Shown here piece by piece: positions 2,571 to 23,903 of a DNA stretch of 47,535 bases; within the stretch, counting starts at the first letter, position 1, and each line of letters opens with the position of its first letter. Source of the stretch: Candidatus Omnitrophota bacterium (GTDB taxonomy: Bacteria; Omnitrophota; JACPQZ01); contig JACPQZ010000076.1 of assembly GCA_016190205.1 (NCBI GenBank), positions 68,632-116,166 on the forward strand, written 5' to 3'. The notes under the pieces were generated by a model. That model searched no databases. It worked only from the letters and a program-made list of their open reading frames with translations, and was not told the DNA's origin. A program made the translations under genes and the position numbers.

Positions 2571-3452
2571 TCAGCGACAAAAACTGGACCCAAGCGCCTT
2601 GGCCACAAAAAAACGCGCGGGTCCAGCACCCTGGCTACCCAACTGGCTGCGCAGACGGTCGCGCGTGCGAACCGCCTCCTCTTTCGAAGTAAATAGGGCA
2701 AAAACAGAAGGTCCGCTGCCGGACATGCATACGGATTGAACGCCGATGGAACGCAGGCAGTGGATGAGCCTTCCCACCACCGGTTTTAAGACCACCGTGA
2801 CTTTCTGTAAGTCGTTATGTAGCAATTGGATAATGTCAGAGAGCGGCTGAAGAATCTTACGCGGCATTCTAGCACCCAACACAGGACTTGTCAAGAATGG
2901 CCCCATAGACCCTATATACGAATATATCATATCGGTGCGCACCGGCACGGAGGGGGTTACGATAAGCGCCCAAAAGGGCGCACGCAAGTCAGCGGGCACG
3001 ATCCGGTCACCCCTCGCGAGCCCCCAGGCGCTTCCACAGCCGGACACAAAAAAGGGGACGTCCGCCCCGATGGCCCGGGCCTCCTCGTTCAAAACCTTCC
3101 TCGGCAAACGCAGATTCCAAAGACGGTTGAGTCCCAAGAGGGTTGAGGCGGCATTGGAGCTCGCTCCGCCCAAGCCTGCCGCCACCGGGATGCGTTTTTT
3201 GAGAAAGATTCGAACCCCCTGCCGGCCCCTCGTGAAACGCTCAAGCCGCCTCGCCGCCGCGACGCACAGATTGGTCCCGTCGCGCGGGACCCCGGCGGCC
3301 GATGTGGAAATGGAGACGCCTCGCGGTGCCTGCTCCAAGATAATCTCATCGCAGAGATCGACGAGTTGAAAGAGGGTGCGGATCTCGTGATACCCGTCCG
3401 GCCGTCTCCCCAATACCTCGAGCCGCAGGTTGATCTTGGCAGGAGACTTTAT
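2571..3452 (-). CDS. ispE: IspE, 4-diphosphocytidyl-2-C-methyl-D-erythritol kinase, apparent ATA start
   Basis: IspE is the GHMP kinase of the non-mevalonate (MEP) isoprenoid pathway. The frame shows PAKINLRLEVLGRRPDGYHE at the N-terminus, the ATP-binding glycine-rich loop AAGLGGASSNAAS and the C-terminal GSGPSVFAL motif. The first canonical start (TTG at 3413) would remove PAKINL, which is conserved. Upstream, the frame contains no ATG, GTG or TTG back to its stop. The best fit is ATA at 3452 within ATAA, overlapping the TAA stop of the TPR gene and giving 293 residues beginning (M)KSPAKINL. This looks like an ATGA overlap whose G became A. The function is secure, the start is inferred. Confidence 0.9.
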   Translation of the reverse strand: MKSPAKINLRLEVLGRRPDGYHEIRTLFQLVDLCDEIILEQAPRGVSISTSAAGVPRDGTNLCVAAARRLERFTRGRQGVRIFLKKRIPVAAGLGGASSNAASTLLGLNRLWNLRLPRKVLNEEARAIGADVPFFVSGCGSAWGLARGDRIVPADLRAPFWALIVTPSVPVRTDMIYSYIGSMGPFLTSPVLGARMPRKILQPLSDIIQLLHNDLQKVTVVLKPVVGRLIHCLRSIGVQSVCMSGSGPSVFALFTSKEEAVRTRDRLRSQLGSQGAGPARFFVAKALGSSFCR

Positions 3453-5005
3453 TCGGATGCTTTTAACGGATCTTTCTCCAAGCGGCTCTTTAAGGCTGCC
3501 AGCTTTTCCTGAACCTTACTTTGCCCCGGATCCAGCTTCAGGGACTGCTCCCAGTGCTCCTGGGCCTGGGACCAGAGCTCGAGTTGATTATACATATCTC
3601 CCAAGTGATCTTGGATCACGGGGTCATCGGGCATGAGTTCGCCCGCGCGCTCCAGCCACTTCCGGGCATCCTCCCACATCCCCTTCTTAAAATACACCCA
3701 TCCCAGGCTGTCCACGTAGGCCCCGTTATCTGGCTCGAGCTTAAGGGCCTGCTGAATAAGCTCCAGGGCTTCATCCAGATGCATCCCCGCCTCTGCGTAC
3801 ATATAACCCAGGTAATTGTAGGCATCGGCGTTTTCCGGATTAACCCGGATGGCGCTCTTAAACTCCTCCGCCGCCTTCTCCTTGTCACCCATGCGGTCAT
3901 GCAGGGCGCCCAGCCGGAAATAGACATAATCATTCGTGGATTCGGCGTCCTTGGACTCGTTGAGAAACTGAACCGCCTCCTCATTTTGACCGAGCTCCGC
4001 ATGCGAAATCCCGAGGAGGAAACTCACCTCGTAGTTTTTTCCCGCAAGACCCCGCGCCTTCTCCAACACCCCCACGGCCTCTTCATAGCGCCGCTCCTTT
4101 AAGAGAAGGTAGGCCAGCTCGATGAAGCCGTCCACATGGTCCGGCTTGAGCTCCATGAGAAGTTTGTACTGCTGGATGGCCTCTTCTACCCGCCCGGCCT
4201 GGTAGTACATCTGCCCTAGATGATGGTACACCCTTAAATTCAGGGGATTGACCTTGAGCACCTCCTCGTACTGGGCGATGGACCTGTCCTTTTCGCCCTG
4301 CATCTCATAGATGACGGCAAGCCCCAGGCGCGCCTCCACATAGCCGGGCTTAAGTTCTACGGCCTTGTTGAGCATTGAGAGGGCGGCATCATAGCGGTTC
4401 ATCCGGCTAAACAGGATGCCCAGATTAAAATAGGTGACGGGCTCTGTCCGGCCCGCCGCGATTATTTTTTCATAGACGGCCACGGCCTGCGGCAGCTGGT
4501 CTTCCATGACATAAAGATCCGCCAGCGCGGTCAAGGCCTGTTCGTCTTGAGGCTCCTGCGCCAGGATCTTTTGATAATTCTCAATCGCCTTTGGGTACAT
4601 CTGCCGCGAAGTATAGAGAAGGGCAAGCAGAAAGAGGGGGCGGGTGTTACCAGGATCGAGCTCCTGACTTTTTTCCAGGGCCTCCACGGCCTCGTCAAAA
4701 CGGCCCATGCGAATGAGGCTCGCGCCCAACCGCAGGTGAATGATGGCATTGTCAGGATCGAGGCGCAGGGCCTCCTCGTAAGCATCTATGGCCGCTACGG
4801 TATTGCCGCGGTTGTCGTGCAAAAGGCCGCGCGTGTAGCTGGCCCAGGCCCGAGTCTTGTCGGTATCCGTCTTACCGGTCTTGCGGATGCCCGCGCATCC
4901 GGGCGCGAGGAGGGTGACCAGTATTAGGAGGGAAGCAGCGATTCGTACTGCGTACTGCGTACTGCGTACTGCGAGAGTCGACAGTCGACAGTCGACAGTC
5001 GACAA
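3449..5005 (-). CDS. TPR-repeat lipoprotein with start region inside heptamer repeats
   Basis: From the proposed TTG at 5005 the product has 518 residues. A hydrophobic segment around residues 22-33 is followed by a lipobox-like APGC, with Cys near residue 37, suggesting export and lipidation. The rest is a continuous array of roughly twelve tetratricopeptide repeats (patterns such as AIDAYEEALRLDPDNA), a scaffold for protein-protein contacts. No ATG exists near the signal peptide. The TTG has GGAG seven nt before it; GTG codons at 5020 and 5026 are alternatives. The frame stays open to a GTG at 5221, but that extension is pure heptamer sequence. Residues about 4-21 are encoded by GTCGACA and GTACTGC repeats. 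Binding partners are unknown. Confidence 0.8.
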   Translation of the reverse strand: MSTVDCRLSTLAVRSTQYAVRIAASLLILVTLLAPGCAGIRKTGKTDTDKTRAWASYTRGLLHDNRGNTVAAIDAYEEALRLDPDNAIIHLRLGASLIRMGRFDEAVEALEKSQELDPGNTRPLFLLALLYTSRQMYPKAIENYQKILAQEPQDEQALTALADLYVMEDQLPQAVAVYEKIIAAGRTEPVTYFNLGILFSRMNRYDAALSMLNKAVELKPGYVEARLGLAVIYEMQGEKDRSIAQYEEVLKVNPLNLRVYHHLGQMYYQAGRVEEAIQQYKLLMELKPDHVDGFIELAYLLLKERRYEEAVGVLEKARGLAGKNYEVSFLLGISHAELGQNEEAVQFLNESKDAESTNDYVYFRLGALHDRMGDKEKAAEEFKSAIRVNPENADAYNYLGYMYAEAGMHLDEALELIQQALKLEPDNGAYVDSLGWVYFKKGMWEDARKWLERAGELMPDDPVIQDHLGDMYNQLELWSQAQEHWEQSLKLDPGQSKVQEKLAALKSRLEKDPLKASE

Positions 5006-5219
5006 CCTGCGACTCCGCACATCCACGGCTAGCCTATCACCCCTGCTCCTTCTTGCTTCTTCCTCCGTCTCTCGGCAGACCGTGAACTGTGGACTGTAGA
5101 CAGCGGACAGTGGACCGTGGACCGTGGACTGTGGACGCACAACGCACAACGCACCACGCACCACGCACGACGGGGGATTTTCGGCATGCGATCCCCGATC
5201 CCCGATCCCCGATCCCCGC
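4944..5219. repeat. Five-family heptamer array upstream of and within the TPR lipoprotein start
   Basis: Successive 7-bp arrays are GTACTGC at 4944-4974, GTCGACA at 4977-5005, GTGGACT/GTGGACC at about 5080-5136, CGCACAA/CGCACCA at 5136-5170 and GATCCCC at 5189-5219. Each is tandem with a period of 7 and few mismatches. The array lies between hisG (stop at 5223) and the lipoprotein signal peptide and partly codes for its N-terminus. It is the densest mix of families in the window. Confidence 0.9.
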
Positions 5220-5222
5220 ACG

Positions 5223-6128
5223 TCAGTTTATAACCTTGTTGAGCGGATACTCGATAATCCCCTCCGCGCCGGCGCTCTTGAGGCGTGGGATGAGCACGCG
5301 CACCTCTTTTTCATCCACCACCGTGTCCACATCGTACCAGCCCGGCTGGGTCAGTTTGGCAACGGTAGGGCCCTTCAGCGCCGGAAGGATAGAGGTGACG
5401 CGTTTGAGATCTTTTCCGGAGACGTTCATCTTTAGACCCACCTTTTCGCGGGCCAATAGAGCGCCTTCCAGAAGAAGCGCGATGTTGGCAACCTTGGCAC
5501 GTTTGGCGCGGTCCTTCCAGGCCGCGCGGCTGGCAATGAGAACTGTCCTCGATTCCATCACGGTATCCAAAATGCGCAGGCGGTTGGCCCTCAAGCTCGT
5601 TCCGGTCTCCGTGACCTCCACGATTGCGTCCGCAAGGAGGGGGGGCTTCACCTCCGTCGCACCCCATGAGAACTCCACCCGCGCGCGGACGCCGTTCTTC
5701 TTTAAATAGGCGCGCGTGACCTGGACGAGCTCCGTTGAGATGCGCTTGTCCTTAAGATCGCGCACCGATTGAAACGGAGAGTCCTCCGAAACCGCCAGGA
5801 CCCAGCGCACCTTTCCCAGGCTCTGCTTGGCGTAATCGAGGGCCGTAACCGTCACCACCTTTGATCCGTTTTCCTCAACCCAGTCCTTACCCGTGAGTCC
5901 GCAATCGATGACCCCGTCCTCGACGTAGCGCGACATCTCCTGCGGCCGGAAGAGGATGACTTCTATCTCGGGATCGTCAATCGCGGGGTAATAAGAACGT
6001 GCACTCGCCTGAATATTAAATCCGGCATTCCGGAAAAGGCGGATCGTAGCCTCTTCCAGACTCCCCTTAGGTAACCCGAGCCTCAGGCGTGTCTTAACCC
6101 CTGTTGGTTTATCAGTGGCCTTTGTCAT
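5223..6128 (-). CDS. hisG: HisG, ATP phosphoribosyltransferase (long form)
   Basis: HisG catalyses the first step of histidine synthesis, joining ATP and PRPP. The N-terminus [19 protein letters not shown] and the segment [21 protein letters not shown] are typical. [21 protein letters not shown] is the PRPP-binding signature. At 301 residues with a C-terminal region reaching [18 protein letters not shown]...TVAKL, this is the long, self-sufficient form that carries the ACT-like histidine-feedback domain and does not need HisZ. It overlaps larC by about 17 nt, so translation is probably coupled. No other his gene is in view. Confidence 0.96.
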
Positions 6129-22351: not shown

Positions 22352-22761
22352 GGTCCTTCTCCTCCTCTCACTGTGTCTTGCGCTGCAAACACTTTCTGAA
22401 GGAACTGCCCCGTCGTGCGCGTGTCGCCGAGGCCCCCGCCCACCATAAGCTCGCCCAGCTCCCCCCGGTCGCACCAGAGCCCGTGCAGGCGCGGGCAGCG
22501 GTCTACGAGCACCTTCCGGTCTACGCCATGCGCCACCTTCCTCATCCGCATCCGGCAGATGGGACAGCGCCTCTTTTTTTCACGGGACTTCAAGTCCTCC
22601 GCCCCGAACGACAAAAACACGCGAGCCCTCTCCGAGCCTTCCAGCAAAAGTTCCAACTCACCCTCATCGAGCCACACCCCCCCGCAGTCCATACAGTGGT
22701 CCAGCTCCACTTCATCTAGTTCCAGCACCACCATAGGATCTTTGCAGGCCGGGCAATTCAT
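22348..22761 (-). CDS. Tandem TFIIB-type zinc-ribbon protein
   Basis: The 137-residue protein has two copies of the small ribbon known as zf-TFIIB: CPAC...CMDCGGVWLDEGELELLL near the N-terminus and CPICRMRM...DRCPRLHGLWCDRGELGELM in the middle. Such proteins are soluble and presumed zinc-binding; no enzymatic function is known. The second copy has CxxC then CPRLHGLWC, so one zinc ligand may be unusual. The gene overlaps lemA by 4 nt and thus belongs to a LemA/M48 zinc-linked operon. Confidence 0.85.
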   Translation of the reverse strand: MNCPACKDPMVVLELDEVELDHCMDCGGVWLDEGELELLLEGSERARVFLSFGAEDLKSREKKRRCPICRMRMRKVAHGVDRKVLVDRCPRLHGLWCDRGELGELMVGGGLGDTRTTGQFLQKVFAAQDTVRGGEGP

Positions 22762-23903
22762 TTGATCGAAATAAATGCCTCTTCTTTAAGTTCATTCACC
22801 CATGTCCGGAAGGCCGCAGAGAATTTTTCCTGGTAGAGCGCGTTCTCAATCTCATCGTTAACTTCTTGAAACGCAGGCAGGGATGCCTCCTGTCTCACAT
22901 CCACCCTGAAGAAGTGGTAGCCCACGCGGGACTCGACGGGGCCCGAAATTTCGCTCACCTTCAAAGAAAAGAGGGTCTTGTCAATCTCTTCCACCATTTC
23001 CCCCCGGGAAACGAACCCTAAGTCCCCGCCCTCGTCGCGGTTGGGGCCTTCGGAATACTGCTTGCAGACTTCCTCGAAGGGGGTCCCTTGCTCAAGAAGA
23101 GCGCGCACGCGCTCCAGTTTTTCAAGGACGAGGTCCTGACCCTCCACCGTTGCCTCGTCCTCCGCCTCCCCAAGGCCATCGCCGGCCGGGGCCTCATCTT
23201 CGGGGCGCGCCTTGCGTATGAGGATCATCCTGGCTCTAACCTTCTCCGGCGTCTTAAAATCGTCCGCATGAGCACTATAGTAATCTTGTATCTCCTTGGG
23301 AGATACGATGATACGAGATCTGACCTCCATTCCGATAAGCTGCTGAATCAGGTGCTGGTCCCTGTACTTTTGCCTCAATTCTTCCAGCGAGAGCCCCTGC
23401 TCGCTCACAGCCTGATGGAAGGCTTCCTCCGATTCGAATTTTCCAATGACCTCGCGGACGCGCTCCTCCACCTGCTCGGCGCTCGCCTCGAGTCCCTTTT
23501 CACGCGCCCTCTGCAGAATGAGGTGATCCTCGATGATCTGCCCCAGAATATCCCTGCGTGCCTCGGAGATCTTTCGCACAAGCCCTTCTCCCTGATAAAC
23601 CGTCTGATACTGCGCGACAATGGGATTCAGGCGCTCCATGAGCTCGCTCTGCGTGACGATGTCTTCGTTGACGACCGCGACAATCCTGTCGACTACCTCT
23701 GCCACCGCTATAGATATAACAGGACGGAACCATGATTCGGGAAGCGGGAAGCGGGAAGCGGGAAGCGAAAGAAACCAGATACCAGAAACCAGCAACCAGA
23801 AGAAACCAGTTACCAGAAACCAGAGATGGGGCGAACGGATCTTTTTCTGGTATCTGGTATCTGGTATCCTCTGGTATCTGGTTACTGGTTTCTGGTTACT
23901 CAT
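22758..23903 (-). CDS. surA: SurA-like periplasmic chaperone/peptidyl-prolyl isomerase
   Basis: The mature part starts near residue 69 with EVVDRIVAVVNEDIVTQSEL, the SurA N-terminal domain, and has one parvulin domain around residues 220-345 (ARMILIRKAR, then GGDLGFVSRGEM, and SRVGYHFFRV). SurA assists folding of outer-membrane proteins, so an outer membrane is implied. The start ATG at 23903 overlaps the mfd stop. The first 68 residues have a basic stretch then a hydrophobic one (residues 27-47), and almost all of this is encoded by ACCAGAA and GAAGCGG heptamers. No other canonical start precedes the mature domain except a GTG at 23705 that would lack any signal. Function firm, start moderately sure. 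Confidence 0.87.
   Translation of the reverse strand: MSNQKPVTRYQRIPDTRYQKKIRSPHLWFLVTGFFWLLVSGIWFLSLPASRFPLPESWFRPVISIAVAEVVDRIVAVVNEDIVTQSELMERLNPIVAQYQTVYQGEGLVRKISEARRDILGQIIEDHLILQRAREKGLEASAEQVEERVREVIGKFESEEAFHQAVSEQGLSLEELRQKYRDQHLIQQLIGMEVRSRIIVSPKEIQDYYSAHADDFKTPEKVRARMILIRKARPEDEAPAGDGLGEAEDEATVEGQDLVLEKLERVRALLEQGTPFEEVCKQYSEGPNRDEGGDLGFVSRGEMVEEIDKTLFSLKVSEISGPVESRVGYHFFRVDVRQEASLPAFQEVNDEIENALYQEKFSAAFRTWVNELKEEAFISIK
23739..23900. repeat. Heptamer arrays ACCAGAA and GAAGCGG, coding for the SurA-like signal peptide
   Basis: GAAGCGG occurs about four times at 23739-23768. ACCAGAA/ACCAGCA heptamers cover 23775-23825, and their inverted arm TATCTGG/TTTCTGG covers 23847-23900. The region lies inside the surA-like frame and reaches the mfd stop codon. 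Period 7 is maintained throughout. Confidence 0.9.

Follow-up and report, generated by a model that had tools for sequence, protein, structure and literature searches.

The window analysed here is a stretch of 47,535 nt from a Candidatus Omnitrophota genome (a 1.65-Mb draft metagenome assembly, the sole member of its class among the genomes compared), and it encodes on the reverse strand a TPR protein whose gene lies 3' of hisG and 5' of a GHMP kinase gene (Pfam) in the same orientation (Table 1). The gene product matches TPR families in Pfam and shares 35–43% identity with nine Omnitrophota homologs, and a hisG C-terminal motif is also found upstream of the TPR gene in 28 of the 46 loci compared below. 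From its Pfam TPR match, predicted N-terminal export signal and upstream hisG, it appears to be the TPR protein of the Omnitrophota hisG neighbourhood. Between hisG and the hydrophobic segment of this protein, TRF confirmed the five heptamer arrays that the initial annotation had read there, and a second set of arrays lies at the start of a SurA-like foldase gene in the same window.

Table 1 Features at the TPR and SurA starts (positions are those of the window)
Feature	Position	Strand	Reading and evidence
TPR lipoprotein gene	3449..5005	-	Most likely start TTG 5005, 518 aa; Pfam TPR families, homologs, gene finder
Candidate lipid-modified Cys (APGC)	4895..4897	-	GCAG at the same place in homologs L053, L048, L055 and L050
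Hydrophobic segment IAASLLILVTLLAPG	4898..4942	-	Not repeat-built; translation
CGTACTG array	4944..4973	-	Sense peptide AVRSTQY; second part of predicted n-region, over homologous start position; TRF
CGACAGT array	4972..5004	-	Sense peptide STVDCRL; first part of predicted n-region; TRF and translation
GGAG, Shine-Dalgarno-like site	5013..5016	-	7 nt before TTG 5005; read directly
GACCGTG/GACTGTG array	5078-5136		Open in TPR frame; TRF
ACGCACA array	5135-5172		Open in TPR frame; TRF
CGATCCC array	5189-5218		Open in TPR frame; TRF
hisG	5223..6128	-	Directly upstream of TPR gene; Pfam HisG
SurA-like foldase gene	22758..23903	-	Pfam SurA_N and Rotamase; predicted signal peptide from inverted heptamer pair
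CGGGAAG array	23738..23767	-	Sense SLPASRFP; directly after SurA hydrophobic region; TRF
Array, sense TCTGGTT/TCTGGTA	23770..23824	-	Hairpin 3' arm; predicted hydrophobic region of SurA; TRF
Array, sense AGATACC/AACCAGA	23846..23896	-	Hairpin 5' arm; predicted charged n-region of SurA; TRF

Read directly, the TPR frame holds no ATG before the hydrophobic segment, as had been noted, and it does contain TTG 5005, GTG 5020 and GTG 5026, with the GGAG in its place before the first of these. They are not the sole candidates that the initial annotation had taken them to be, since GTG 5140, TTG 5149, GTG 5161, GTG 5164 and GTG 5221 are in frame as well. The next in-frame starts downstream of the arrays (TTG 4822, TTG 4729 and ATG 4708) all lie past the lipobox Cys, so that any ATG, GTG or TTG start that keeps the signal peptide must lie upstream of both leader arrays. 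Among the in-frame starts upstream of the segment, only TTG 5005 has a well-placed GGAG, and our home-made gene finder, which is blind to arrays, independently chose the same codon, making it the most likely translation start. The missing ATG itself was rejected as an oddity of this gene, because starts other than ATG are common in the family, 14 of 42 other TPR homologs likewise having no ATG.

Read from TTG 5005, the predicted n-region has Arg at residues 7, 14 and 21 and one Asp, and is thus positively charged. The hydrophobic segment and lipobox-like site together read IAASLLILVTLLAPGC, and the APGC reported earlier is present. With Pro at -2, APGC falls outside the PROSITE lipobox pattern; several TPR homologs have GC or GCAG at this place, and others (such as L012 and L018) have no Cys there. 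The three arrays nearer to hisG (5078..5218) are probably untranslated leader. Folding gave no significant hairpin at the TPR start (z -1.0 and -1.7), and this leader is therefore not of the full hairpin type described below for SurA.

Comparison with homologs bears directly on where the start used to be. The count of starts covered 46 loci, namely the window, 15 other Omnitrophota loci and 31 of the 80 loci of a further set (47 were tried, and L011, in which no segment passed, was dropped), with L056 and L071-L118 (49 of the 80) and the partial matches L025-L038 lying outside it; L020 and L052 are identical in this comparison and seem to be a single contig that carries two names. L049, L063 and L066 yielded no start; the L063 gene lies at a contig edge. 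In all 42 other homologs with a start in the available sequence, 2-12 codons separate the nearest start from the hydrophobic segment, versus 21 in the window, and the homologous start position in the window falls on the CGTACTG array, with no start codon there. The proposal that repeats had invaded the start region is thus supported, and the ortholog comparison that had been suggested for locating the ancestral start places it inside the repeats and not outside them. Since the CGTACTG array covers the homologous position, we infer that the start has moved upstream. Lag-7 arrays occur in the signal zone of four of the 46 loci (the window, L053, L063 and L060, the array of L060 appearing to lie upstream of the ATG), and arrays of seven other periods in none. 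In one further genome (L031:840-960, G035), AGAGAAC is repeated 11.9 times directly after a hisG-like end, upstream of a TPR homolog but outside its leader; the gap between hisG and the TPR gene may be especially prone to heptamer arrays.

The SurA-like gene of the same window carries a leader of a different kind. From ATG 23903, SurA overlaps the stop (23898-23896) of the upstream frame, and its leader peptide would read MSNQKPVTRYQRIPDTRYQKKIRSPHLWFLVTGFFWLLVSGIWFL. The leader stretch folds as one hairpin of -72.5 kcal/mol (z -10.6), with none of 200 shuffles as good. Our gene finder placed the SurA start at 23705, downstream of the arrays, so the evidence for the array-built leader is ATG 23903 and our inspection of the sequence.

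At the genome scale, heptamer arrays are far beyond chance: 447,535 nt of the source genome contain 93 lag-7 runs, versus 0–4 at each of lags 4-6, 8-13 and 15, with 81 runs at lag 14, which is twice the unit. Most of these arrays (81 of the 93) are mostly intergenic, and they are diverse, the 33 longer ones falling into 22 unit classes. An inverted partner array lies within 150 nt for 15 of 93 arrays in the source genome, 16 of 60 in the Nitrospinota genome G286 and 6 of 38 in the Omnitrophota genome G285, whereas random array pairs match as inverted partners in 4–6% of cases. The claim that a heptamer array encodes a seven-residue periodic peptide in every frame, often without stops, held up on computation: over seven codons, every base of the unit takes the second codon position exactly once, so all frames give the same cyclic peptide, and 11,260 of the 16,384 heptamers (69%) are stop-free in all three frames. 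The idea of frame-proof oligomer repeats is reportedly Ohno's. Each of the 11,260 stop-free heptamers contains as many T as its peptide repeat contains F, L, I, M and V residues together, such that a T-rich arm yields a hydrophobic peptide and its A-rich reverse complement one with K, E, Q, N, D and similar residues.

Other leaders in the source genome appear to be built in this way. Among 110 sampled genes with an N-terminal hydrophobic segment (called with a home-made hexamer model rather than a standard tool, and with signal peptides assigned by a hydropathy rule rather than SignalP), six have in the signal zone a lag-7 array that would have to be translated, and none has one at lags 5, 6, 8, 9, 10, 11 or 13; they include SurA, a DsbD_N protein and an M16 peptidase (Pfam). 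The unit CAGTACG forms 12 distinct arrays (19 matches), five of which encode leaders, those of TPR, two proteins with a start of the same type (one weakly PilX_N-like, one with a Sec-type signal) and two prepilin-like proteins. An imperfect array also forms the N-terminus of the L131:205 protein (Pfam PilX_N and T2SSK, labelled PilX/GspK-like). The TPR protein had been called a second exported protein with a repeat-built N-terminus; it does appear to be one such protein, but the count was too low, given SurA and several other leaders. Cytosolic proteins whose predicted N-termini hold arrays (CoaBC-like in L142; IspD-like and ABC-transporter ATPase-like in L134) were not counted as array-built, because possible starts lie downstream of their arrays. 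At L131:100-215, L131:3290-3400 and L165:1380-1500, an array is followed by a mini-frame ending in EPNGCKPGD or similar, a conserved spacer, and an ATG with an array. Separately, in an IspG-like gene (L175, G000:C67, ~1497-1550) a CAGTACG array separates the main part from the C-terminal portion with MGCEVNGPGE, and a stop in the same frame comes after the array; this could be a split gene, a pseudogene or an assembly error.

Beyond the source genome, both the SurA and the TPR leaders appear, on sequence reading, to be array-built in three array-rich genomes, the source genome and G285 (Omnitrophota) and G286 (Nitrospinota), with different units. In G285 the TPR homolog (L053), which has a hisG-like end directly upstream, takes its hydrophobic region LAAGCWLLAAGC from TGCTGGC, and in G286 the homolog (L063) has an n-region RQEARGKRQETR from GAGGCAA followed by a hydrophobic region FFLLLASCFLLL from TTCTTGC, both frames being intact. 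Since these two genomes were chosen for an array in the TPR gene, TPR is not independent there; SurA played no part in the choice. SurA orthologs of five genomes comprise three that are array-built, from TCTGGTT in the source genome, CTGTTCA in G285 and TCTGTTA/TCTGTCT in G286, and two that are ordinary (G171 and G253), with matches in G096 and G035 standing outside this comparison. Among 29 other Omnitrophota SurA loci (from 116 genomes with a match) we found no array-built leader; one, L317, has a lag-7 array near the start, where a downstream ATG serves.

Single units are reused within these genomes. In G285, TGCTGGC forms four distinct arrays (eight matches), one at a C-terminus and three in leaders (TPR, another lipoprotein-like protein and an N_methyl prepilin). 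In G286, TTCTTGC forms 17 distinct arrays (25 matches), which we read as 11 N-terminal leaders, three internal arrays and three that are not evidently translated. Nine of the 11 leader proteins were searched against Pfam and all nine matched, to HtrA-type protease, polysaccharide deacetylase, cytochrome, periplasmic binding protein, SCO1, SurA, PpiC-type, FecR and ATP synthase b families; four G286 leaders fold as hairpins (z -6.6 to -9.7). Random samples gave lag-7 signal-zone arrays in 8 of 55 genes of G286 (two of them probably spurious), with two at lag 6 and one at lag 9, and in none of 39 genes of G285, with one at lag 9. General use of TTCTTGC across Omnitrophota was rejected, as three perfect copies occur in only 3 of 285 genomes, and none of the seven loci inspected among 14 matches there (L148, L149, L150, L154, L155, L157 and L159) has a clear array-built leader.

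Thus, we posit, with a probability of about 0.72, that arrays overwrote an older TPR start and now encode the charged part of the signal peptide, with translation beginning at TTG 5005. The gene would encode a conserved envelope lipoprotein, and the heptamer arrays of the hisG-TPR gap would have either expanded or been introduced across the start codon and n-region that it first had. The two arrays downstream of TTG 5005 would supply a charged n-region MSTVDCRLSTLAVRSTQYAVR, with Arg every seven residues, leading into the hydrophobic segment, which the repeats left intact, and then APGC, the predicted cleavage site for signal peptidase II. Charge followed by hydrophobicity suffices for a Sec signal peptide, which is afterwards removed. 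Because leaders are judged by composition and then discarded, and because the cyclic peptide encoded by an array does not depend on the frame and is usually free of stops, arrays would be tolerated there and could even serve. Carried further, the same process would write whole signal peptides, as predicted for SurA, with an A-rich arm supplying the charge and the T-rich arm inverted relative to it supplying the hydrophobicity.

Other readings of the TPR start are less probable. Translation is unlikely to begin at GTG 5020, GTG 5026 or further upstream, bringing more repeat families into the protein as a long N-terminal extension. The frame, earlier followed to 5221, is indeed open as far as 5227, with seven GTG or TTG codons upstream of 5005, and one of the six frames is open across 4943-5221, versus 3.6% expected for 93 random codons at this GC. 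However, so many heptamers are stop-free that an open frame is weak evidence of translation to 5221; we rejected it as proof, the openness being largely a by-product of stop-free units, and both the short n-regions of the homologs and the GGAG argue for TTG 5005. A phase-variation switch, in which gain or loss of one 7-nt unit would shift the frame and turn the lipoprotein off, would fit arrays placed between TTG 5005 and the hydrophobic segment, and the other two frames stop 5 and 23 codons downstream of the array. We nevertheless consider it improbable, as TRF counts only 4.3 and 4.7 copies in the two leader arrays, the analysis covers a single assembly, and the GHMP kinase gene downstream does not suggest a surface-variation locus.

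Somewhat more weight, though still well short of favouring it, goes to the reading that the arrays are DNA or RNA control elements (promoter spacing, an attenuator or an RNA-binding site) and that their translation is incidental. The predominance of intergenic arrays and the strong hairpins at the SurA and Nitrospinota leaders are consistent with such a role, and the TAACTGA heptamers of Beggiatoaceae have been proposed to act in translation (PMC4679880). Against it, units differ between neighbouring arrays and between genomes, the repeated leaders in L131, L165 and L001 have no Rfam match, and the TPR leader folds weakly. It is very improbable that the TPR N-terminus is simply broken, by pseudogene formation or misassembly, and the protein not made: a draft metagenome assembly with short repeats is prone to assembly error, and the IspG-like gene of the same genome has an in-frame stop after its array, but the TPR frame is intact and conserved, and array-built TPR leaders with intact frames are found in two other genomes.

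Beyond the overwriting of the TPR start, we tentatively suggest, with distinctly less confidence, that inverted heptamer arrays may be ready-made, self-generating signal-peptide cassettes with which array-rich lineages repeatedly replace native export leaders, among them those of SurA, TPR lipoproteins, HtrA-type proteases, PpiC-type lipoproteins and others. Because A and T are complementary, charged codons on one strand correspond to hydrophobic codons on the other, whichever frame is read, such that a purine-rich 5' arm and its pyrimidine-rich partner would spell 'charged then hydrophobic' on both strands, and a hairpin in the mRNA at this position may in addition couple translation of export genes to a control signal. 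Array-built leaders in general would offer a testable route from non-coding repeats to functional protein sequence: almost any sequence that is first charged and then hydrophobic is tolerated in a leader destined for removal, and heptamers provide one in whichever frame they are read. They also give a possible reason for in-frame heptamer arrays in exported proteins. From a practical perspective, automated gene calling in array-rich genomes will put starts in the wrong place or overlook signal peptides.

Heptamer over-representation, intergenic position and seven-residue translation are already known (PMC4692102, PMC4679880). Heptamers are over-represented in many bacteria (PMC4692102), and the arrays here follow suit, with period 7 far above neighbouring periods and mostly intergenic. 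The TAACTGA heptamers of Beggiatoaceae (MacGregor 2015, PMC4679880) are abundant intergenic direct repeats, mostly just before start codons and some in open frames, usually at protein ends, with seven-residue translation discussed; ours resemble them in abundance and occasional open frames, but comprise many units rather than one and form predicted leaders of SurA, TPR and prepilin-like proteins, and the sections of that paper drawn on here do not describe signal peptides. Enterobacterial RU elements and Rickettsia palindromic elements are MITE-like, about 100-170 bp and of fixed sequence (Delihas 2007, PMC2759123, PMC2229807; citing Ogata 2000). The source-genome arrays resemble them as dispersed repeats in frame in several genes (13 overlap predicted genes, some internally), yet are not a fixed sequence with terminal inverted repeats; they comprise many heptamer units whose base composition would shape the leaders, and the same genes are affected repeatedly (compare PMC2759123, PMC2229807). 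The GGGAATC heptamers of Xanthomonas and Nostoc, likewise intergenic arrays and some of them inverted, are treated in the account drawn on here as G-quadruplex regulators, not coding sequence (PMC4692102). Tandem repeats of archaeal Borgs are, as here, both intergenic and in frame, often in extracellular or membrane proteins, but encode perfect amino-acid repeats that are commonly disordered, whereas the leaders described here are expected to be cut off (PMC9879509). In the literature searched, mostly outside subscription journals, neither heptamer arrays nor heptamer hairpins were described as recurrent signal peptides.

Arrays were also seen in the middle of proteins. A dihydrolipoamide-dehydrogenase-like gene (L143:6998-8431) has an in-frame CGGGAAG array mid-protein; the labels TMTC-like, TolC-like, Lpd-like, CoaBC, IspD, IspG and ABC-transporter ATPase-like come from sequence reading, not family search. 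In G286, a glycosyltransferase-like frame (L196) has a RQEARGKKQEE insert mid-protein, and two similar membrane-protein frames (L190 and L202) have an array-built charged stretch and hydrophobic segment mid-protein.
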